NCBI RefSeq assembly: GCF_019278465.1
Contig: NZ_CP058983.1
Location: 806,001-870,000 of the forward strand
Source: Tenacibaculum sp. AHE14PA
GTDB taxonomy: Bacteria > Bacteroidota > Bacteroidia > Flavobacteriales > Flavobacteriaceae
DNA length: 64,000 bases
Reading direction: 5' to 3'
Shown here: positions 17,940 to 59,284 of the stretch, in pieces
How positions within the stretch are numbered: the first letter of the stretch is position 1
Layout of the letters: each line of letters begins with the position of its first letter
Notes under the pieces: model-generated
What the model was told of the DNA's origin: nothing
The model's database searches: none
The model's input: only the letters and a program-made list of their open reading frames with translations
Program-made: the position numbers and the translations under genes

Positions 17940-18067
17940 TAGCCCTGATTGAGTGGTTTGTTTGAGCTGTTTTTTGCTGTTAGTTCGAGTAAATTTGTAA
18001 AGTATGAACAAATTTGTATCGAGAACAGCAGCAAAAAAAGCGAGTAACGAAAGCAGGAAATAGCTTC
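17940..18067. repeat. Repeat family E with a nested family C segment
   Basis: The outer parts (TAGCCCTGATTGAGTGG ... GTTTGAGCTG and AAAAAAAGCGAGTAACGAAAG ... AGGAAATAGCTTC) match the element at 59399-59480. Between them, 17981-18026 (AGTTCGAGTAAATTTG ... TTTGTATCGAGAAC) resembles the left part of the family C element at 59157-59284. The composite lies 8 nt downstream of the SDR stop codon. Confidence 0.7.
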
Positions 18068-18075
18068 TAAAAAAA

Positions 18076-18852
18076 TTACAAACTCTTTGTTCTACCTCCA
18101 TCAACCGGAACGTTAATTCCGTTAATAAAACTTGCTTTTTCACTTGCTAAAAACACAATTGCATTGGCAATTTCTTCTGGCTTTGCAAAACGTTTTGCTG
18201 GTGAAGCATTCATCATGTTTTCTGAAACCACCTCAACAGACATTCCTGTTTTAGCTGCTTTATTATTTATAATTTCTTTTAAACGCTCAGTTCCTGTTGC
18301 ACCTGGCAACACGTTATTTACAGTAATATTAAACTGTCCCAGTTCGTTTGCCAATGTTTTAGACCAACTCGCAACGGCTCCACGAATAGTATTCGACACT
18401 CCCAAGCCGTCTAAAGGTTGTTTTACTGAAGTAGAAATCACATTAATTACCCTACCAAAACCTGCTTCTTTCATAAACGGAACCACCGCTTGCACTAATA
18501 CATGATTGCATTTTAAATGTTGAGTAAATGCAAGTTCAAACTCATCTAATTGCGCATTAAATACCGGTCCTCCTGCTGGGCCACCTGTATTGTTTACCAA
18601 AATGTGAAAATTTAAATCACTTGCTTCAATCTTTTCTTTTAATTCTGATGGATTCGAAAAGTCAGCAACAATATAATTGTGATTTTGGTTGTTATTTGGC
18701 AATTCTGCCAAAACGGCTTTCAACTTTTCTTCGTTACGAGCAATTAACGTTACGTTTACACCTTCTGATGCCAACCCTATTGCCGATGCTTTTCCTATTC
18801 CTTGTGTGCTTCCGCAAACCAAGGCGTTTTTATTTTGTATGTTTAAATTCAT
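18076..18852 (-). CDS. Divergent short-chain dehydrogenase/reductase-like protein
   Basis: A 258-aa Rossmann-fold SDR with the cofactor motif GSTQGIG at 14-20 and NNTGG at 87-91. The family's catalytic Tyr-x3-Lys is absent: the aligned segment reads SNTIR at 153-157, so Tyr is Ser and Lys is Arg. The same variant occurs in a recognised SDR subgroup (from memory), so the gene is not simply damaged. Its place between the aminomuconate semialdehyde dehydrogenase and the 3-hydroxyanthranilate dioxygenase suggests a part in kynurenine breakdown, but the reaction is unknown. Confidence 0.8.
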   Translation of the reverse strand: MNLNIQNKNALVCGSTQGIGKASAIGLASEGVNVTLIARNEEKLKAVLAELPNNNQNHNYIVADFSNPSELKEKIEASDLNFHILVNNTGGPAGGPVFNAQLDEFELAFTQHLKCNHVLVQAVVPFMKEAGFGRVINVISTSVKQPLDGLGVSNTIRGAVASWSKTLANELGQFNITVNNVLPGATGTERLKEIINNKAAKTGMSVEVVSENMMNASPAKRFAKPEEIANAIVFLASEKASFINGINVPVDGGRTKSL

Positions 18853-18873
18853 TTTTTTCTATTATATTATAGT

Positions 18874-18946
18874 TGTCAGATCGAGCGCAGTCGAGAACCA
18901 TTTATAGTTGATTTTTAATAACCTCTCGACTGCGCTCGAGGTGACA
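18874..18946. repeat. Palindromic repeat, family A
   Basis: TGTCAGATCGAGCGCAGTCG and, inverted, CTCGACTGCGCTCGAGGTGA form a hairpin of over 20 bp with an AT-rich loop. It ends 21 nt upstream of the SDR start codon and fills the gap behind the small gene at 18972. Confidence 0.85.
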
Positions 18947-18971
18947 AATCTATTGCCAATTTTTTTATTTT

Positions 18972-19190
18972 CTAATTGTTATTCTGGATCATTGTTTTAA
19001 TTTTAACCGCTTTTTCAAAGTGATCTAACTCATGAGTTTCAATCCACCATTTTGCGACTTCCATCAATAATTTCGGATTGTCATTTTTATTTTTAAAAAA
19101 CGCATAAAAAGATACCCCTACATTGGTTCCTTTTTTTGTAATCTTCTCATCACAAACATCAATAATTTTTTGTTGTATTTCTTTATTCAT
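18972..19190 (-). CDS. Small conserved-looking protein of unknown function
   Basis: A 72-aa protein starting MNKEIQQKIIDVCDEKITKK, with the block GVSFYAFFKNKNDNPKLLME and WWIETHELDHFEKAVKIKTM. It looks soluble and helical. I recall similar small proteins grouped as an uncharacterised DUF (possibly DUF6500), but cannot confirm it. The start at 19190 is preferred over an upstream in-frame ATG at 19250, because the extension is just the dehydrogenase 3' end read in another frame. It overlaps the dehydrogenase stop by 8 nt, so translation is probably coupled. Confidence 0.7.
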   Translation of the reverse strand: MNKEIQQKIIDVCDEKITKKGTNVGVSFYAFFKNKNDNPKLLMEVAKWWIETHELDHFEKAVKIKTMIQNNN

Positions 19191-20625
19191 AACTAATACA
19201 AATATTTTTAGGTTCTGTAAAAAAACGCAAGGCTTCAAAACCACCTTCACGCCCTACTCCGCTTTCTTTTTGGCCGCCAAAAGGCGTTCTTAAATCTCGT
19301 AACAACCATGTATTTACCCATACAATTCCTGCATGAACTTGTTTTGATATTTGCATGGTTCTGTTTAAGTTATTCGTCCAAAGTGTAGCTGACAATCCGT
19401 ATTTTACATCATTTGCCAAACGCAAAGCTTCTGCATCTGTTTTAAACGGCATTATGGTAACCACAGGCCCGAAAATCTCTTCTTGATTCAGCCTGCATTT
19501 ATTATCGGAAACCTCAATAATTGTTGGTTGTAAATAATATCCATTTTCACTGTCTATGACAGTAACAGTTTTCCCTCCAAAAAGGATTTTTCCGCCTTCT
19601 TGCTCGGCGATATCAATATATGATTTTACTTTTTCTAAATGTTGTTTAGAAACTAATGCGCCTATATTTGTATCTACTTCGGATGGATTACCAACCTTTA
19701 ATTCGGATACTTTTTGAATAAAACCTTTTTTAAATTTCTCATAGATTTTCTCCTCTACAAAAATTCTACTTCCGCATAAACAAATCTGACCTTGATTGGC
19801 AAATGAAGAGCGAACCGTAGTATTTAACATCTTTTCGTAATCGCAATCAGCAAAAATTAAATTCGGATTCTTACCTCCTAATTCTAATGATAGTTTCTTA
19901 AACATTGGTGCCGCCACTCGTGCAATGTGTGCCCCTGTAGCCGTGCCGCCTGTAAAAGAAATTGCTTTAATATTCGGGTGCTCTACAATTGCTTGCCCTG
20001 TGGTGGTTCCCAATCCGTGAACAATATTTAAAACACCTTTCGGGAGACCTGCCTCCGTACAAATCTCACCCAATAAATAAGCAGTCATTGGCGTTACTTC
20101 GCTTGGTTTTGCAACAACGCAATTTCCTGCAGCAATTGCCGGAGCTATTTTCCAAGTAAATAAATACAACGGTAAATTCCACGGAGAAATACAACCTACT
20201 ACTCCGATTGGCTGACGCATTGTAAAATTCATCGCATTTAAACCAACACTTTCATGCGCTTCGGATGAAAACTGCGTAATTGCATTTGCAAAAAACTGAA
20301 AATTACTTGACGCTCTCGGAATATCTATCTGAGTAGCTAAGCTTACTGGTTTTCCGTTATCTTTAGATTCTTCGGCTGCTAAAAAAGATAACTTTTCTTT
20401 TATCAATGTTGCAATCTTTGATAAGATGTTACTTCTCTCATCTAAAGATGTATTTGACCAACTAGGAAAAGCATCTGCTGCTGCTTTATAAGCTAACTCA
20501 ACATCTTCTTTTGTTGAATTCGGAATTTGAGAATATACTTCTCCATTTGATGGATTGTAATTATCAATCCATCTGTCAGCAACAGGAGAAATGAGTTTAC
20601 CGTTTATGTAGTTTTGTATATTCAC
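19183..20625 (-). CDS. 2-aminomuconate 6-semialdehyde dehydrogenase
   Basis: This NAD-dependent enzyme oxidises 2-aminomuconate semialdehyde to 2-aminomuconate. The 480-aa aldehyde dehydrogenase has Asn150 (SPWNLP), the NAD-binding FTGGTATG at 224-231, general base Glu248 (LELGGK) and catalytic Cys282 in GQICLCGSR. This is the hydroxymuconic/aminomuconic semialdehyde dehydrogenase type. The substrate is assigned from the operon, which holds the enzymes just before (ACMSD) and just after (2-aminomuconate deaminase) it. It starts 18 nt after the cupin gene and overlaps the small gene behind it. Confidence 0.88.
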   Translation of the reverse strand: MNIQNYINGKLISPVADRWIDNYNPSNGEVYSQIPNSTKEDVELAYKAAADAFPSWSNTSLDERSNILSKIATLIKEKLSFLAAEESKDNGKPVSLATQIDIPRASSNFQFFANAITQFSSEAHESVGLNAMNFTMRQPIGVVGCISPWNLPLYLFTWKIAPAIAAGNCVVAKPSEVTPMTAYLLGEICTEAGLPKGVLNIVHGLGTTTGQAIVEHPNIKAISFTGGTATGAHIARVAAPMFKKLSLELGGKNPNLIFADCDYEKMLNTTVRSSFANQGQICLCGSRIFVEEKIYEKFKKGFIQKVSELKVGNPSEVDTNIGALVSKQHLEKVKSYIDIAEQEGGKILFGGKTVTVIDSENGYYLQPTIIEVSDNKCRLNQEEIFGPVVTIMPFKTDAEALRLANDVKYGLSATLWTNNLNRTMQISKQVHAGIVWVNTWLLRDLRTPFGGQKESGVGREGGFEALRFFTEPKNICISYE

Positions 20626-20643
20626 TTTATTTTTTTTATTAAT

Positions 20644-21036
20644 CTATTTATATTCAATAATTAAAAAAACGGCAGTTTCATCACCTATATTTAAAACTTC
20701 GTGTGATGATCTCTCATCTTTTGAAAAACTAGAACCTGTTGGCACATTAACTTCTCTAGTCCCTTTAGCATCTTTAATTTTAAATCTACTTCCAGCCAGC
20801 GTATAACCAAAATGTTTGTTATGATAATGTTTCTCATGGCCAACTCCCGGTGGAAAAGTACATTTTAACACTCTTAATTCAGCATTATCCTTTAGTACTT
20901 CACAAACCTTTTCTCCTTTCCAACCAGCTTCTAAAGGATCTGGAAGCGTAGTTTTAGGCTTACATGATGATAAACCAATAATTAAAAAACAAAAAACTAT
21001 CTTTTTTATATGGATACTTCTTTTTAATATAACCAT
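20644..21036 (-). CDS. Cupin-domain lipoprotein
   Basis: A 130-aa protein with a lipoprotein signal (lipobox LSSC, Cys at about 25) and a single cupin domain. The metal motif region HEKHYHNKHFGYTLAG is at about 71-86, and the second motif, ERSSHEVLNIGD, is near 107-118. A lipid-anchored cupin outside the cytoplasm is odd in a cytosolic catabolic pathway. A ligand-binding role or an envelope enzyme is possible, but nothing in the sequence decides it. Its ATG follows the deaminase stop codon directly with no spacer, so the two are translationally coupled. Confidence 0.75.
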   Translation of the reverse strand: MVILKRSIHIKKIVFCFLIIGLSSCKPKTTLPDPLEAGWKGEKVCEVLKDNAELRVLKCTFPPGVGHEKHYHNKHFGYTLAGSRFKIKDAKGTREVNVPTGSSFSKDERSSHEVLNIGDETAVFLIIEYK

Positions 21037-21438
21037 CTATTGTTTTTTATACGCCATTACTTTAATCTCCACTACTAAATCTGGATGTGGTAATTGATGT
21101 ACAGCAACTGTTGTACGTGTTGGGCCTGTTTCTTTCTCAAAAAACTCTCCGTAGGCTTTATTATAACCTGCAAAATCATTCATGTTTACCAAGAATGAGG
21201 TCACATCAACCACGTCTTTAATACTTGCCCCAACGGTTTGTAATGTCTTATCGATATTCTTTAAAACTTCGCGTGTTTGTATTTCTGCATCTAACTTTTT
21301 AGTATTCATTTCGTCAATCAACTCCACACCTGCTATCGTATTGTCCGAACGCCTTGAACTTGTTCCTGAAACAAAAATAAAATCTCCCACAACTTTTACA
21401 TGTGGATATGCGCCTCTTGGTGTTACTTTTTTTTCCAT
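21037..21438 (-). CDS. 2-aminomuconate deaminase (RidA superfamily)
   Basis: A 133-aa RidA/YjgF-fold trimeric protein: [20 protein letters not shown] near the N-terminus, the [20 protein letters not shown] block with the conserved Arg, and the terminal Glu-containing strand. General RidA proteins hydrolyse enamines/imines. In this operon it should deaminate 2-aminomuconate to 4-oxalocrotonate, as in the 2-nitrobenzoate and tryptophan meta-cleavage routes. The deaminase assignment rests on the operon. It is followed without a gap by the cupin lipoprotein gene. Confidence 0.85.
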
Positions 21439-21449
21439 ACTTACTTTTT

Positions 21450-21520
21450 GTCTGGTCGAGCGCAGTCGAGACCTTTTTATATTCTTTATTTTAAAAACCT
21501 CTCGACTGCGCTCGAGGTGA
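21450..21520. repeat. Palindromic repeat, family A
   Basis: GTCTGGTCGAGCGCAGTCGA and the inverted CTCTCGACTGCGCTCGAGGT form a long hairpin around an AT-rich loop. It starts 8 nt after the DUF1697 stop and ends 11 nt before the deaminase ATG, filling the gap. Confidence 0.85.
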
Positions 21521-21528
21521 AATTTTAG

Positions 21529-22050
21529 TTATTTTTCTGCTAACTCCAACAACTTAAGTGTTGTTCTTAAATTCCGCGTTGTTGCAATTGCATTAAGCTT
21601 TTTCTCTATAAGATTATTTGTCAACTTTGTTTTTCCAAAACCTGTCGGACAATATAAGTACACAACATCATTATCTATTTTGCACTTATCTTCTTCTATA
21701 TTCTTAACTACAATTTCAGATATTTCTGTTTTTCTATCTAAGAATGTAAAGGCTACTATTTTTTCATTTTCAAGTGAAAAAGGATAGTTATTAATCGCTT
21801 TTTTCCATTCAGAAACTGTTCTAATAATCACAGGAACATGGTAACCGAATTCATCAAAAATTCCGTCTTTTATCTTTTTACAGATTGTTCTTTTATTTTC
21901 ATCTGATTCTAAAATAATATTCCCACTCTGAATATACGTTTGTATATTTTGAAACTGTAAATCGTTTAATAACTCACGTAAATCTACCATCGGGAGTTTA
22001 TTTTTTCCCGACACATTTATTCCGCGTAGTAAAACAATGTACTTTTTCAT
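21529..22050 (-). CDS. DUF1697 protein
   Basis: A 173-aa protein that opens with the family's signature MKKYIVLLRGINVSGKNKLP and continues with LQFQNIQTYIQSGNIILESD. The C-terminal KLTNNLIEKKLNAIATTRNL and TLKLLELAE are also typical. The family adopts a small alpha/beta fold with no known activity. It lies inside the kynurenine operon between the GIY-YIG gene and the deaminase, bordered on both sides by family A repeats. No link with kynurenine breakdown is apparent. Confidence 0.88.
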   Translation of the reverse strand: MKKYIVLLRGINVSGKNKLPMVDLRELLNDLQFQNIQTYIQSGNIILESDENKRTICKKIKDGIFDEFGYHVPVIIRTVSEWKKAINNYPFSLENEKIVAFTFLDRKTEISEIVVKNIEEDKCKIDNDVVYLYCPTGFGKTKLTNNLIEKKLNAIATTRNLRTTLKLLELAEK

Positions 22051-22066
22051 TTTTATTTTTGTTAAG

Positions 22067-22270
22067 CTCTCGACTGCGCTCGAGGAGACACATTTTATTT
22101 GATTTTACTTTTTTCTTCCTCTCAACTGCGCTCGAGGAGACAATTTTATCCTCTTTCGTAATATCAGTTCGAACTCAGTCAATAACTATTTATTTTATTA
22201 ACCTCTCGACTACACTTAAGGCGACATTTTTATCCTTTTCCGCAATGTCAATTCGAGCGCAGTCGAGAAC
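22067..22270. repeat. Cluster of family A repeats
   Basis: At least four copies fill this gap. Forward-oriented units are at 22067-22090 and 22118-22142. A degenerate inverted pair lies at about 22162-22225, and a unit of opposite orientation at 22246-22270 runs into the GIY-YIG stop codon. The first two units with their spacer (22067-22142) are nearly identical to 22598-22673 on the other side of the GIY-YIG gene: 76 nt with 4 mismatches by my count. Confidence 0.85.
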
Positions 22271-22590
22271 TATTTATTACCTGGATTGTATTTATGATGA
22301 GTTGCATTTCTACATTCTGATAAAATCCCTAACATGTCAAAATCTTTATTTGCTAATGCTAACTTCTTTTTACTGCTCCACTGTTTTATCTTTTTCTCGA
22401 AATAAATGGCTTGTTCAACGTCATTAAAAACCTGTTTAAATATCAATTCTAAAGGTCTTCTTTTAAAAGTAAAACAAGTTTTATTTAAACCTTTTTGATG
22501 CTCTTCATATCTTCTATTTATATCATTAGTCATTCCGGTATATAATAAACCATCCGCACATTTAATAATATAAACATAATACGTTTTCAT
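22270..22590 (-). CDS. GIY-YIG nuclease-domain protein
   Basis: A 106-aa single-domain GIY-YIG protein. The motif appears as YVYIIK (5-10) and LLYTGM (15-20), with the conserved Arg at 26-27 (NRRYEEH) and the metal-binding Glu at about 65 (YFEKKIKQW). Related small proteins are often called UPF0213/YhbQ-like; the family's cleavage targets are mostly unknown. Its stop codon touches a family A repeat, and another repeat pair begins 7 nt before its start codon. It interrupts the kynurenine operon in the same orientation, and no pathway role is evident. Confidence 0.88.
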   Translation of the reverse strand: MKTYYVYIIKCADGLLYTGMTNDINRRYEEHQKGLNKTCFTFKRRPLELIFKQVFNDVEQAIYFEKKIKQWSSKKKLALANKDFDMLGILSECRNATHHKYNPGNK

Positions 22591-22597
22591 AATTAAC

Positions 22598-22673
22598 CTC
22601 TCGACTGCGCTCGAGGAGACACATTTTATTTGATTTTACATTTTTCTTCCTCTCGATTGCGCCCGAGGAGACA
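22598..22673. repeat. Two family A units in direct orientation
   Basis: CTCTCGACTGCGCTCGAGGA and CTCTCGATTGCGCCCGAGGA are separated by an AT-rich spacer. The 76-nt block repeats 22067-22142 with 4 mismatches. It lies between the kmo stop and the GIY-YIG ATG. Confidence 0.85.
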
Positions 22674-22684
22674 TTTTAATTTAT

Positions 22685-24109
22685 TTACAATCCTGCTATT
22701 TTATCCTCTTCTAAAATATCGTTTGTTTCTTCTTTTACTTTTTCTAAAATAACCTTTAACTCTTCTTTTGTCATTTTTAAATGTGTGTGAACTTCATCAT
22801 CTACAATTAAATTTAATAAAGCTTTGTCTTGCGCTCTTCCTCGTTTCATAGCTTCATTATAACTAATTTCTTCGTTAAAAGTTACCAATGAATATTTAGA
22901 AAAATATTGATCCGGGAAATTTTTCTCTAAATCCTTTTCTATTTTTTGTTTTTCTTTAAATAACGGATTCGCCACATGATCTTTCATTTCATGAAAATTA
23001 TCAATTGCTAAATCGGCAATTGCATCTGTATCTTGTTTTCTTGCTTTTTCGTACCTTTTAAAAACTGTTTCCCAATCACTTATTTCTTCATCATCTTCGA
23101 AACTATTTAATATCTCATCAAAAACAGTAACATCTTCAAAAGAAGCATTCATTCCTTGTCCGTAAAACGGAACAATTGCATGCGCAGCATCTCCTATTAA
23201 AATTGTTTTATTTTTATAATACCACGGCGAACATTTTACGGTTCCTAACGCTCCTGTTGGATTGTTTAAAAACTCGTCTTTTATACTTGGTATTAAGGCT
23301 AAAGCATCTGGAAATTGCTCTTCAAAAAAGGTTGTTATTTTTTCTTCGGATGTTAAATTGTTAAAATTATATTCGCCTTCATCATAACTTAAAAACAAGG
23401 TTACTGTAAAACTTCCATCCATATTTGGTAAGGCTATTAACATATACTCACCACGAGGCCAAATATGTAAATGATCTTTACTTATTTGATGTTTACCTAC
23501 TTTATCAGCAGGAATTTCCAATTCTTTATATCCGTGGGATAAATAATTTTGAGAATAGCTAAATAAAAATTTACGCTCTAAATAATAGTTTTTTCTCAAA
23601 ATAGAACCAGCTCCGTCGGCACCAAAAATCACATCCGAGTTCACAGAAAACTCTTCTTTTGTAATATAGTCTTTAAAATGTGCAATTGTATTTTCAATAT
23701 CAACCGATGCACATTTTTTATTAAAATGAATCGTTACATTTTCATGCTTTTCTGCTTCTGTTAACAAAATACCATTTAAATCGCCTCGTGAAATTGAATT
23801 GATATACTCTCCTTCTCTTCCTGAGTAATTAGATGCAAAAGTATTTCCTTTAATATCATGCATTAATCGACCATACATGGGAATACAAATTTCTTTAGCT
23901 TTTTCTTCAACACCCGCTAAGCGCAATGCTTTAAATCCGCGATCAGATAGTGCTAAATTTATAGATCTTCCTGCAGAAATATCTGTAGTTCTTAAATCTG
24001 GTCTACTTTCATAAACCGTAACTTTAAAACCTCTTTGAGCTAAACGTAAAGCCAATAAACTTCCGCATAAACCAGCTCCTATAATTAATATGTTATCTTT
24101 TTTATTCAT
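22685..24109 (-). CDS. kmo: Kynurenine 3-monooxygenase
   Basis: This FAD enzyme hydroxylates L-kynurenine to 3-hydroxykynurenine using NADPH and O2. In 474 aa it shows the FAD dinucleotide-binding motif GAGLCGSLLALRLAQRGFKV at about 8-27, the mid-protein GADGAGSILRKNYYL, and the flavin-ribityl motif GDAAHAIVPFYGQGMNASFED near residue 300. The last about 60 residues form the C-terminal helical part typical of KMO. It follows kynureninase in the operon, across a gap holding family A repeats. Confidence 0.95.
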   Translation of the reverse strand: MNKKDNILIIGAGLCGSLLALRLAQRGFKVTVYESRPDLRTTDISAGRSINLALSDRGFKALRLAGVEEKAKEICIPMYGRLMHDIKGNTFASNYSGREGEYINSISRGDLNGILLTEAEKHENVTIHFNKKCASVDIENTIAHFKDYITKEEFSVNSDVIFGADGAGSILRKNYYLERKFLFSYSQNYLSHGYKELEIPADKVGKHQISKDHLHIWPRGEYMLIALPNMDGSFTVTLFLSYDEGEYNFNNLTSEEKITTFFEEQFPDALALIPSIKDEFLNNPTGALGTVKCSPWYYKNKTILIGDAAHAIVPFYGQGMNASFEDVTVFDEILNSFEDDEEISDWETVFKRYEKARKQDTDAIADLAIDNFHEMKDHVANPLFKEKQKIEKDLEKNFPDQYFSKYSLVTFNEEISYNEAMKRGRAQDKALLNLIVDDEVHTHLKMTKEELKVILEKVKEETNDILEEDKIAGL

Positions 24110-24119
24110 TTTATATTCG

Positions 24120-24178
24120 TGTCAGTTCGAGCGCAGTCGAGAACTAGTTAAAACCTCTCGACTGCGCTCGAGGAGACA
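24120..24178. repeat. Palindromic repeat, family A
   Basis: TGTCAGTTCGAGCGCAGTCG and CTCGACTGCGCTCGAGGAGA form a hairpin of over 20 bp with a short AT-rich loop. It lies 10 nt upstream of the kmo start codon. Confidence 0.85.
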
Positions 24179-24308
24179 TTATATGTATATTGTAAAATAT
24201 TATTTAACCATTTTATATAGCAATACTTTTCCTGAAAAAATATTAACGCTGAGACTTCAATAATCATCATTTTTTTCTCACTAAAACGCTGCTTACAATT
24301 AATAAACA

Positions 24309-24332
24309 CCTCTCGATTTCGATCGAGGAGAT
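24309..24332. repeat. Degenerate family A half-unit
   Basis: CCTCTCGATTTCGATCGAGG resembles one arm of the family A repeat. It lies 10 nt downstream of the kynureninase stop codon. Confidence 0.6.
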
Positions 24333-24342
24333 CTTTTTAGTT

Positions 24343-25605
24343 TTACAGCAACCCTTTTAATATTGAAACCATTTTATAGACATCTTCAAAAGAATTATAC
24401 ATTGGCACAGGTGCACAACGTATAACATCAGGCTCTCGCCAATCGGTAATAATATTGTTTTCTGTTAGTTTTTTATGTAAATTTTTATCCGCATTTTTTA
24501 CCTGAACAGACAACTGACAACCTCTTTCTTTTGGATTTGAAGGTGTAATAATCTTAATACTATCAGAAGCTATTTGATTGATTAAAAACTCAAAATATCC
24601 TGTTAATTTTTCTGATTTCTCACGCAATGCTTCCATACCAACCTCAGCAAACATATCAAGCGAAGCTTTAATTGCCGTCATTGATAATATTGGCGGGTTA
24701 GATAATTGCCATCCTTCGGCACCCGGCATTACATCAAAAGGTTGACGCATGTTAAATCGTGTATCTTTATTATGATTCCACCATCCTGAAAAACGTGGTA
24801 ACTCTTTATTCTCTGCATGTTTTTCATGTACAAATAATCCCCCTAAACTTCCTGGACCAGAATTTAAATATTTATAAGTACACCAAGCTGCAAAATCTAC
24901 TCCCGAATCATGTAATTCTGGAGAAATATTCCCTGCTCCGTGTGCTAAATCAATCCCTACAAAACACTCTTTTGAATGCCCTATTTCAGCTATTCTTTTT
25001 AAATCTAAATATTGACCGGTGTAATAATTTACGCCACCGATTAATAACAACGCAATTTCATCCCCTTGTTCGGCTACAATCGTTTCTAAATCTTCAATAT
25101 TTAATAATTCCTCTCCTGCTCTAGGTTTCCACTCTATCAATCCCTCTTCTACATCAAATCCGTGAAATTTTAATTGCGATTGCACTGCATATCTATCCGA
25201 AGGAAAAGCATCAGACTCTATTACAATTTTATATTTCTTTTTTGTAGGCTGATAAAAAGACACCATTAAGAGATGTAAATTTGTTGTTAAAGTATTCATC
25301 ACAACAACTTCTAGTGGTTTTGCACCCACTATTTCTGCCATATTCGCTGTTAAAAGTTCGTGATATGACAACCAAGGATTCTTGGCTTCAAAATGGCCTT
25401 CTACACCATAATTAGCCCAATCATCTAATTCTTGTTGAATATATTTTTGTGTACTCTTAGGTTGTAATCCTAATGAATTCCCTGTAAAATACAACCAATC
25501 TTTTCCTTCTTTATCTTTCGGTATATGAAATTGACTACGCAAATGCGCTAACTTATCTTCTTTATCTTGTTGCTGTGCGTATTCTAAGGTATTTATATAT
25601 GTCAT
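24343..25605 (-). CDS. kynU: Kynureninase
   Basis: This PLP enzyme cleaves 3-hydroxykynurenine (or kynurenine) to 3-hydroxyanthranilate (or anthranilate) and alanine. The 420-aa fold-type I protein shows YFTGNSLGLQPK at about 39-50, NTLTTNLHLL at 104-113, Asp219 in GIDLAHGAG, and the Schiff-base lysine Lys245 in WCTYKYLNSGPG. The length is standard. It appears to be the first gene of the operon, with a candidate -7 box just upstream. Confidence 0.95.
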   Translation of the reverse strand: MTYINTLEYAQQQDKEDKLAHLRSQFHIPKDKEGKDWLYFTGNSLGLQPKSTQKYIQQELDDWANYGVEGHFEAKNPWLSYHELLTANMAEIVGAKPLEVVVMNTLTTNLHLLMVSFYQPTKKKYKIVIESDAFPSDRYAVQSQLKFHGFDVEEGLIEWKPRAGEELLNIEDLETIVAEQGDEIALLLIGGVNYYTGQYLDLKRIAEIGHSKECFVGIDLAHGAGNISPELHDSGVDFAAWCTYKYLNSGPGSLGGLFVHEKHAENKELPRFSGWWNHNKDTRFNMRQPFDVMPGAEGWQLSNPPILSMTAIKASLDMFAEVGMEALREKSEKLTGYFEFLINQIASDSIKIITPSNPKERGCQLSVQVKNADKNLHKKLTENNIITDWREPDVIRCAPVPMYNSFEDVYKMVSILKGLL

Positions 25606-25616
25606 TATTAAAACTA

Positions 25617-25656
25617 AAAAAATGATTGTTTTTCAAATATAAAACAATCATTTTTT
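25617..25656 (-). terminator. Terminator of the SerB-SerA gene
   Basis: On the minus strand AAAAAATGATTGTTTT, an 8-nt loop and AAAACAATCATTTTTT make a perfect 16-bp stem followed by T residues, starting 25 nt after the stop codon at 25681. The loop contains the candidate kynU -7 box. Confidence 0.8.
25634..25641 (-). promoter_or_regulatory. Candidate kynurenine operon -7 box
   Basis: The minus strand reads TATATTTG, a TAnnTTTG match, 29 nt before the kynU ATG. It coincides with the loop of the terminator hairpin. I see no -33 partner. Confidence 0.4.
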
Positions 25657-25680
25657 AGATAATAATATTTACTGTAGAGA

Positions 25681-27570
25681 TTAATATAAAACTCTAAATT
25701 TTATGGTCCCTTCTATCTCGCGAAGCTTTGCGATTACTTCTTCATTATATTCTTTATCAACATCAGTAATTACATAACCAACTTTAGAATCAGTTGACAG
25801 ATATTGTCCTGTAATATTTAGCTCGTACTTTGCTAACTGTCTATTAATTTTTGCCATTACACCCGGTACATTTTTATGAATATGTAAAAAACGATGTGCA
25901 TTGGTTTGGCGCGGTAATCTAATATTCGGAAAATTAACAGCATCTACAGTATCACCAGAGTTAATATATGCCATAATTTTACTCGGCACAAAATCTGCAA
26001 TATCTCTTTGCGCTTCTTCTGTACTTCCTCCAACATGTGGCGTTAGAATAACATTGTTTAATCCTTTTAATTCCGTTAAAAAATCACCATTTTTAGCTGG
26101 TTCTTCCGGATATACATCTACTGCACAACCTGCTATTTTACCTGATTTTAATCCAGCAACCAAGGCTTCAATATCTACTACAAAACCTCTAGAAAGATTT
26201 ACAAAGTGAACTCCGTCTTTCATCTGAGAAATTTCTTCTTTACCTATATAATTTTTATTAGCAGCATTATCATCAACATGTAAAGTAACTACATCTGAAA
26301 TATTTAGCAACTCTTTTAAAGTTGCTACTTTAGTTGCATTACCTAAAGCCAGCTTATCTTCTACGTCGTAATAATAAACGTACATTCCCAGAGCTTCTGC
26401 TAAAACAGATAATTGTTTACCGATGTTTCCGTAACCAACAATTCCTAATTTTTTACCACGAACTTCACGCGAACCTTGCGCTGTTTTGTTCCATTGTCCG
26501 TTATGCAACTCGGTACTTCTTTGAAAAACACTACGCATTAGCATAATGATTTCTCCGATTGCTAACTCAACCACAGAGCGTGTATTGCTATAAGGTGCAT
26601 TAAAAACTACGACTCCGTTTTCTTTGCAAACTTCTAAATCGATTTGTTTTGTGCCGATACAAAAAGCTGAAACAACCATTAATTTTTCGGCAGCTTCAAT
26701 TACTCTTTTTGTGACCTGTGTTTTAGAACGAATTCCTAAAACATGCACGTCTTTAAGTTTTGCAATTAACTCATCTTCTGATAAGCTTTTAGAAACTGTT
26801 TCTACAGAAAAACCATCTCCAGATAACTTCGTAAATGCATCTGGATGTACGTTTTCTAATAATAAAATTTTAATTCTGTTCTTTGGATATGATATATTTC
26901 TTGGCAAATCGTTTAGGTATAAAAATTCGTCTAAATTAGGTGTAATATGATCGGCATTGGCAACTGTTTTTTCTCTAGATACATTTTCGGTGTATGCAAA
27001 AAAAGTATCAGCCACACCTGCTTTTTTTGTTACGGCATCACTATAACCATCGCCAATTACTTGTATTTCTCCTGGTAAATTTAAGTTTTGTAGGCACTCA
27101 ATTTTTCCATCGTGTTTGGAAAGCGGATTCTCTGCATCAAACCCAATAATCAAATCGTTTTTATCAAATTTAAAAGTATTTGCAAAAACTCTTTCAGAAG
27201 GAATATTATATGCTGCAACTATCGGATCTATAAAGTCTTTAAATCCGGCAGAAATAACATATATATCATCAGAAAATTTCTCAAAAAACTCTTTATTACT
27301 TTCAATAGAACGCGAAACCTTTTGTTTTAATTCTTTTATTAAAATAGGTAAATCTGTTTTTTTAGCGTTCAGTAATTTAATACGTTTTTCTAAAGATTCA
27401 GGAAAGGAGATTTCTCCATCAATACCTTGGTTTGTAATTTCTATTATTTCATTAATAATATCCGTTTTTTTAGGATTACCTACTAAAGTGATTTCAGCTA
27501 AAACATCTAACGCCTCTACTCGCGTAAGTGTACTATCGAAATCGAAAACAAAACTTCTTTTTGGTGCCAT
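25681..27570 (-). CDS. Phosphoserine phosphatase-phosphoglycerate dehydrogenase fusion
   Basis: A 629-aa two-enzyme protein. Residues 1 to about 225 form a HAD phosphatase of the SerB type, with the nucleophile motif DFDSTLT (Asp10, Asp12) and a distal GDGYSDAV acid motif. From about 230 on it is D-3-phosphoglycerate dehydrogenase: KLGIVGYGNIGKQL for NAD, SRGFVVDIEAL, and the LTPHVGGSTEEAQ catalytic block. A C-terminal ACT domain at about 555-629 (HKNVPGVMAKINRQL) may sense serine. The first and last steps of serine synthesis from 3-phosphoglycerate would thus be on one chain, lacking only the aminotransferase. Confidence 0.92.
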   Translation of the reverse strand: MAPKRSFVFDFDSTLTRVEALDVLAEITLVGNPKKTDIINEIIEITNQGIDGEISFPESLEKRIKLLNAKKTDLPILIKELKQKVSRSIESNKEFFEKFSDDIYVISAGFKDFIDPIVAAYNIPSERVFANTFKFDKNDLIIGFDAENPLSKHDGKIECLQNLNLPGEIQVIGDGYSDAVTKKAGVADTFFAYTENVSREKTVANADHITPNLDEFLYLNDLPRNISYPKNRIKILLLENVHPDAFTKLSGDGFSVETVSKSLSEDELIAKLKDVHVLGIRSKTQVTKRVIEAAEKLMVVSAFCIGTKQIDLEVCKENGVVVFNAPYSNTRSVVELAIGEIIMLMRSVFQRSTELHNGQWNKTAQGSREVRGKKLGIVGYGNIGKQLSVLAEALGMYVYYYDVEDKLALGNATKVATLKELLNISDVVTLHVDDNAANKNYIGKEEISQMKDGVHFVNLSRGFVVDIEALVAGLKSGKIAGCAVDVYPEEPAKNGDFLTELKGLNNVILTPHVGGSTEEAQRDIADFVPSKIMAYINSGDTVDAVNFPNIRLPRQTNAHRFLHIHKNVPGVMAKINRQLAKYELNITGQYLSTDSKVGYVITDVDKEYNEEVIAKLREIEGTIKFRVLY

Positions 27571-59156: not shown

Positions 59157-59284
59157 TGTCAGTTCGAGTGATTTTTTTCCTTCAAAAAATTGTATCGAGA
59201 ACTTTTTTAACATCAAAATAAAACGATTCAAATTCTCGATACAATTATAATTCCTTTTAGTCATTAAAATCACTCGAATTGACA
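59157..59284. repeat. Long inverted repeat, family C
   Basis: The ends TGTCAGTTCGAGTGATTTT and AAAATCACTCGAATTGACA are complementary, and inner arms AATTGTATCGAGAA / TTCTCGATACAATT pair as well, giving a 128-nt imperfect hairpin. A partial copy sits inside the family E repeat at 17981-18026. Confidence 0.8.

Follow-up and report, generated by a model that had tools for sequence, protein, structure and literature searches.

A candidate mobile unit composed of a GIY-YIG nuclease gene and inverted TGTC-tagged palindromes in Tenacibaculum

Introduction

Enzymes of the GIY-YIG superfamily hydrolyse DNA without forming a covalent link to it. One of its families, Ssn, is said to comprise single-strand-specific nucleases, and a 2025 paper in Nature Communications reportedly describes a Neisseria member that modulates transformation and whose target sequence exists in hundreds of copies, with homologs that have sequences of their own. 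The pairing of a nuclease with a repeat may thus be known already. Whether other GIY-YIG members are molecular parasites is a question raised in a survey of the superfamily (PMC1564403). Among palindromic repeats, Di Nocera et al. (2013; PMC3733652) separate REPs with a GTAG tag, which go with RAYT, from REPs with a CGTC tag, which "apparently lack a dedicated transposase". The latter include Neisseria dRS3 and some Rickettsia RPE repeats, and what mobilises them is left open in that paper (PMC3733652).

The window analysed here is a stretch of 64,000 nucleotides from Tenacibaculum sp. AHE14PA, and it carries a small GIY-YIG gene among palindromes with a TGTC tag. We consider the gene and the inverted palindromes that surround it to be one unit, a REP together with its own nuclease, which moves or duplicates as a whole, and we put the probability of this reading at about 65%.

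The locus and its parts

The features of the locus are collected in Table 1. The protein encoded by the small gene matches PF01541 with 66.4 bits against a cut-off of 22.6 and is assigned to the GIY-YIG superfamily; the residues Y7, Y17, G19, R27, H31 and E65 are invariant across 28 aligned relatives. The structures nearest to its AlphaFold model (pLDDT 90) are two UPF0213 proteins, followed by Slx1 at E 0.01-0.04.

The first-pass annotation had described a near-identical 76-nt direct repeat on the two sides of this gene, and the repeat is genuine: the copies are identical at 72 of 76 positions, whereas 60 random 76-mers of the window gave no non-self match better than 44 of 76. Each copy consists of two palindromes and a spacer, one copy preceding the GIY-YIG gene and the other the next gene (DUF1697). 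The close contact of gene and palindromes that had been reported also holds, the stop codon (22270-22272) overlapping one palindrome by one base and the ATG (22588-22590) lying 6 nt from the other. What had escaped notice is that the two palindromes nearest to the gene are mutually inverted and have TGTC...GACA ends. The core of this palindrome, REP-A, is CTCGACTGCGCTCGAG; with up to 2 mismatches allowed, the 2.82-Mb genome contains it at 61 places, and its reversed control at none.

Three small GIY-YIG genes are present in the same genome, bracketed by REP types A, B and G, respectively. The fourth match to PF01541 in this genome belongs to a 616-aa frame, and REP-A, the one type tested there, does not occur within 1.5 kb of it. 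The operon around the locus (window 18076-25605) is a kynurenine operon, and the name kmo for the flanking FAD-dependent gene is given because kynureninase (TIGR01814) is found in it. This operon is a hot spot: REPs or REPINs occupy several of the gaps between its genes, and in many relatives a GIY-YIG unit lies in one or other of them. Elsewhere in the window, a head-to-head pair of a second repeat type, REP-B, lies at 59164-59277 (G000:C1:865164-865277). Outside the window, at G000:C1:1126811-1127453, REP-B copies follow one another at regular spacing on alternating strands, resembling a small satellite array.

Table 1. Features at and around the GIY-YIG locus, in window coordinates.
Feature	Position	Strand	Basis
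Candidate unit: GIY-YIG gene within inverted REP pair, TGTC...GACA, 376 bp	22246..22621	-	Inverted arms 22246-22268 / 22599-22621; layout shared with relatives
GIY-YIG nuclease gene, 106 aa	22270..22590	-	PF01541 and invariant residues
REP-A past the 3' end of the gene	22246..22270	-	Sequence; orientation opposite to 22597-22621
REP-A ahead of the 5' end of the gene	22597..22621	+	Sequence
76-nt leader copy (two REP-A and spacer) ahead of the GIY-YIG gene	22598..22673	.	72/76 identical to 22067-22142
76-nt leader copy ahead of the DUF1697 gene	22067..22142	.	Read as probable tandem-duplication relic; compare L244
Decayed REP-A pair, between unit and second leader	22162..22226	.	Sequence reading; repeat families
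Gene-less REP pair (REPIN), ends as in the unit, 59 bp	24120..24178	.	
REPIN	18874..18946	.	Gap holds gene-bearing unit in L005, L020, L025
REPIN, one tag decayed	21449..21521	.	
Flanking host gene, FAD-dependent, kynurenine 3-monooxygenase-like (kmo)	22685..24109	-	PF01494
Flanking host gene, DUF1697	21529..22050	-	PF08002

The direct repeat as a duplicated leader

The origin of the direct repeat is suggested by one relative. At locus L244 (genome G037), a leader of two REPs stands ahead of the GIY-YIG gene and recurs 487 nt further on, this time ahead of what is left of a second, truncated GIY-YIG gene that immediately precedes DUF1697. The two leaders of the window lie 531 nt apart, with decayed REPs and no second GIY-YIG gene between them. 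By comparison with L244, the 76-nt repeat is probably what is left after the unit was duplicated in tandem and the second gene was lost. The earlier view that the direct repeat brackets the gene was not borne out: in relatives it is the inverted REPs that recur as ends, the direct repeat is better read as a duplicated leader, and it was rejected as the ends of an element. Insertion through recombination between the direct copies, which had also been suggested, is unnecessary to explain the presence of the gene.

Bracketing across relatives

Relatives of the protein were collected in a scan of one genome per species, and the best 79 of 189 loci were taken. Inverted REP-A lies within 120 nt on both sides of 42 of these 79 GIY-YIG genes, as opposed to 4 of 1271 other ORFs of at least 90 aa from the same loci (Fisher p 6e-53, a statistic that ignores descent and rests on REP patterns defined on the loci in which they were counted). 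Any REP-A within 120 nt is found at 63 of the 79 genes and at 145 of the 1271 controls, and the reversed REP-A pattern is found 0 times. The order in relatives is TGTC-REP-ATG-gene-stop-REP-GACA, and in 24 of 79 loci a gap of 10-13 nt separates the end of the upstream REP core from the start of the protein match. Counting against a fixed unit, REP-A is absent from one or both sides in 37 of the 79 genes; 9 of the 79 are either short or broken, or are truncated where a contig ends. The enrichment of repeats beside these genes over control genes, which the first-pass annotation had proposed as a check, is strong. Its idea of a mobile or selfish unit of nuclease and palindromes stands in so far as the two belong together, as RAYT does with REP, and falls with respect to the direct repeat as the bracket.

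A comparison blind to the sequence of the repeats, in which 150 nt upstream were aligned with the reverse complement of 150 nt downstream, places 43 of 105 GIY-YIG genes above the 99th percentile of the controls, as against 10 of 1135 ORFs, with some loci entering twice (L007/L087, L019/L092, L028/L095, L029/L096). At the scale of the phylum, 32 of 61 loci taken by PF01541 score exceed the 95th percentile of the controls and 13 of 61 the 99th, with many different repeats, some of which resemble ordinary terminators; this set holds 61 of 63 loci, two lying at contig edges, and within it L143-L176 were picked by hand before their flanks were seen and L123 is the same as L091.

The boundary between gene and repeat is not always sharp. 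The C-terminus of the protein is encoded by the REP (EVSTALDxT or similar, then the stop) in L008, L010, L014, L015, L016, L035 and L038. In L183 and L184 the GIY-YIG frame continues in frame into the downstream gene, by eye ACC-deaminase-like, passing in L183 through a translated REP, and in L030 it likewise runs on into the downstream gene.

Repeat type follows the nuclease lineage

A protein search of 116 genomes of the genus gave 78 places in 47 genomes, of which 72 (the 6 weakest left out), together with the third small gene of the window's genome, form a set of 73 genes. One of seven REP types lies within 150 nt of 70 of the 73, and the identical type lies on both sides of 59 (A and A2 pooled). 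Control ORFs have the identical type on both sides in 14 of 1176 cases, and in 2 of 26 within the genus loci. Any REP type on a side is found at 138 of 1176 controls but at 12 of 26 in the genus loci, which speaks against the gene and its repeats being a unit.

On a tree of 69 proteins, from which L003, L198, L203 and L220 are omitted for length, six REP types are present and their labels need 5 changes, the minimum possible, when L092_0, L095_1, L097_0 and L183_0 are set to A by hand, and 6 with the raw labels. With the unlabelled rows treated as a group of their own, 7 changes are needed, compared with a mean of 39 after shuffling, and 0 of 200 shuffles came as low. By association, every lineage of the nuclease is matched with a cognate REP of its own, and part of the agreement is the inheritance of gene and flank together.

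The REP-A hairpin

REP-A has a structure of 4 + 2 pairs around a 2-nt bulge, with a 6-nt loop. Across 242 distinct copies, the outer two stem pairs are Watson-Crick in 97.5% and 91.7%, and all of G-C, C-G, T-A and A-T are used in them, that is, they covary; 1000 shuffles of these pairs reached at most 37% and 50%, a figure that is not a probability since the copies are partly related by descent. Of the 242 copies, 229 retain the bulge TC and 204 have the tag letters GAC. A covarying hairpin with a kept bulge speaks for recognition of the folded strand. A hairpin register with a 1-nt bulge was also considered and is wrong, all three pairs being formed in 0 of 242 copies, while the 2-nt register fits. 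In L012, L029, L031, L244 and L245 there are REP-A copies whose hairpin loop is lengthened by an insert some tens of nt long.

Copy numbers of the repeats

Exact REP-A cores have a median of 32 in the 16 genomes with lineage A (above 150 bits) and of 1 in the other 100 (p 5e-9). Genomes with and without GIY-A hold 27 versus 1 REP-A where GIY-B is absent (p 4e-6) and 37 versus 4.5 where it is present (p 0.002). For REP-B, genomes with and without GIY-B, a set defined from the REP labels, hold 16.5 versus 1 where GIY-A is absent (p 2e-7) and 25 versus 15 where it is present (p 0.14). Two observations go against the unit: REP-B is also higher with GIY-A where GIY-B is not found (15 versus 1, p 9e-4), and some genomes without lineage A are rich in REP-A (44 in G040, 26 in G009, 26 in G029, 25 in G034 and 24 in G038). 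Sisters on the kmo tree, the second of each pair without lineage A, hold 47 and 44 REP-A (G076/G040), 27 and 25 (G037/G034), 43 and 15 (G020/G058), and 21 and 0 (G080/G108). The copy counts are suggestive and only partly specific to the lineage, and their statistics ignore descent.

The window's genome has no match to PF01797 (Y1, RAYT-type transposase) at E 0.001, and RAYT was rejected as the driver in this genome. Genus-wide a weak correlation remains, with 5.5 REP-A in genomes with PF01797 versus 0 in those without it (p 0.001), or 2 versus 0 when genomes with lineage A are set aside (p 0.004). Five of the 16 lineage-A genomes lack PF01797 and hold 19-46 REP-A cores.

Presence, absence and movement

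The site between kmo and DUF1697 holds the GIY-YIG gene in 5 of 30 genus genomes (the best 30 of 104 kmo matches, DUF1697 not being found in the stretch for L250 and L254). Relatives without the gene, which had been proposed as a check, are the other 25, L250 and L254 among them, and some of their empty sites are so tight that the stop adjoins the start codon. On the kmo tree, the distribution of the five filled genomes requires five changes, and 4 of the 5 have an empty sister. Several gaps of the same operon hold the unit in relatives, twice within one genome in L005 and L020, and a gap that in the window contains a bare REPIN is occupied by a gene-bearing unit in relatives (Table 1). The labels of the gaps need at least 16 changes on the gene tree, of which strongly supported branches force far fewer.

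The surroundings are equally varied, with 36 combinations of neighbour families over the 79 loci, three of them with one side unassigned. At 66 of 76 loci the neighbours on both sides are co-directional with the GIY-YIG gene, which is the arrangement to be expected where there is no room for a promoter of its own. Side-by-side GIY-YIG copies occur at seven places of the phylum PF01541 list, and the tandem pair at L095 is 95.9% identical. Against movement of a unit stands the fact that many units remain within one operon. No excess flank identity at 2-8 nt, the target-site duplication by which DDE IS and MITE elements are judged, is seen in 29 REPINs from the window and the 79 loci, and a comparison of relatives did not fix exact insertion points, the non-coding flanks being too diverged.

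Two further features of the region were seen in passing. After kmo, an intergenic sequence, GAAGCTATTTCCTGCT...AATCAGGGCTA, is shared by L231, L235, L239, L242, L244, L245, L249 and L252, with REP-B inside it in L239 and L244. In L227, L229, L230, L242, L247 and L248, the coding sequence of kmo itself contains, at one place, a stretch resembling REP-A (at most 2 mismatches).

A unit and its alternatives

We favour a unit of nuclease and REPs because of the bracketing, the match of REP type to lineage, the covariation, the patchy sites, the varied neighbours, the remnant in L244, the lack of PF01797, the kept catalytic residues and a protein model near UPF0213 and Slx1. The nuclease gene would then sit in the loop of a REP pair, and the scattered gene-less pairs, the REPINs, would be non-autonomous relatives of the unit. 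The enzyme most likely recognises the folded REP strand, with its hairpin, 2-nt bulge and TGTC/GACA tag, and would cut its own REP there, after which host repair could duplicate or copy the unit or the bare REPIN. As hydrolysis leaves no covalent link, movement would depend on such repair. As to mechanism, homing into bare REPINs is a close alternative.

The catalytic residues, invariant in 28 relatives, could have been kept for the benefit of the cell, in a site-specific and perhaps single-strand nuclease that finds its sites in the REPs and tunes, for example, recombination or the uptake of DNA, the pair being held together by function and not by self-spread. Its long persistence in one operon suits this explanation, as does the Neisseria GIY-YIG nuclease Ssn, whose sites reportedly number in the hundreds and which is said to modulate transformation. 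A selfish unit, however, better fits the patchy site, the side-by-side copies, the 95.9% tandem pair, the remnants and the many neighbour contexts, and we judge a host function of this kind to be unlikely. Less probable still is that the REPs are spread by RAYT or some other enzyme, the GIY-YIG gene having landed among them or been moved by recombination between them. REPs are frequent in this operon, recombination between REPs can generally move the DNA that lies between them, and REP-A is somewhat more abundant in genomes with PF01797; but neither the window's genome nor the five REP-A-bearing lineage-A genomes described above have a PF01797 match, and the fixed layout, the enrichment over other ORFs and the lineage-by-lineage match are unexpected for a passenger.

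Co-directional neighbours in 66 of 76 loci imply that the REPs would be transcribed, and together with the covarying hairpin this could point to RNA, with the enzyme or the REP acting on transcripts and the hairpins serving as RNA signals for the operon. The known substrate of GIY-YIG nucleases is DNA, however, no Rfam family was found in window positions 18000-26000, and the patchy sites and tandem units would be left unexplained, which makes a role in RNA processing very improbable.

Among 8 plasmid loci of other phyla, inverted repeats lie on both sides of the gene in L223, L256 and L260, and a REPIN lies on one side in L224; no flanking repeats were found in L225, L257, L258 and L259. These loci were read with flanks of 300 nt and without controls, and in L256 and L257 the ends of the gene are imprecise. 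The same design may reach Alphaproteobacteria and Cyanobacteria (L223, L256 and L260). The GIY-YIG gene of L260, on a Planktothrix plasmid, has TGTCATTCTGAG-type repeats on both sides and lies between an MmeI-type restriction gene and the DISARM gene drmA.

Comparison with known systems

Like the unit of the window, Ssn is reportedly a small standalone GIY-YIG enzyme paired with a many-copy sequence; it is presented as a nuclease and its sites, and is not known to form a unit that duplicates or moves with the gene enclosed by its own REP pair. If the pairing is known, the present analysis adds four things to it: a gene enclosed by its own REPs as a unit, the correspondence between lineage and repeat within one genus, a bulged hairpin that covaries, and signs that the unit has been duplicated, lost and moved. 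Should the Ssn paper already show the unit form, the lineage match, the hairpin and the signs of movement, the unit of the window would be a new member only. Among the papers listed by our searches, which did not extend to preprints and many journals, none joins GIY-YIG genes with REPs. With GIY-YIG homing endonucleases the unit shares a nuclease gene that is patchy at a site, but it differs from them in its multi-copy palindromic ends and gene-less copies, and the gene-less site is at most a possible target. The nearest solved sequences and folds are the UPF0213 proteins (1zg2, 1ywl), whose entries call them hypothetical, and Slx1, which works with Slx4 on branched DNA and has no link to repeats in the entries consulted.

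Among repeats, REP-A shares with the CGTC-tagged super-family the CGTC/TGTC tag, the head-to-head pairs and the dispersed copies (PMC3733652). The CGTC REPs described there have a stem of 8-9 bp, a loop of 4-5 nt and a CCA tail (PMC3733652), whereas the stem of REP-A is bulged, its loop measures 6 nt and a CCA tail is absent. Another REP type of the genus, D, with the form TGTC ATTCCCAC GAAA GTGGGAAT CCA, fits the CGTC-1 description in that paper by eye, with an 8-bp stem starting with AT, a 4-nt loop and a CCA tail (PMC3733652). It is tempting to propose, although we would give it somewhat less than even odds, that TGTC and CGTC REPs together make up one mobile super-family, that the dedicated enzyme it has seemed to lack is of the GIY-YIG kind, and that the window holds a 376-bp autonomous form, which needs no transposase and spreads through folded-strand cutting and host repair. 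If every repeat type has its cognate GIY-YIG enzyme, the mobilisation of CGTC REPs becomes testable with a 106-aa protein and short oligonucleotides, and several natural enzyme-repeat pairs within one genome are suited to specificity swaps.

The closest parallel in design is the REPIN/RAYT system (REPtrons), which has in common with the unit the multi-copy palindromes, their head-to-head pairs, an enzyme gene bracketed by REPs, the gene-less copies and a lineage-specific repeat. The enzyme and the tag set them apart: an HUH tyrosine transposase (PF01797) and GTAG in REPIN/RAYT, GIY-YIG (PF01541 only) and TGTC in the window. If our reading is true, the unit of the window would be a mobile unit of less than 400 bp whose enzyme hydrolyses DNA and which does without the chemistry of a transposase.
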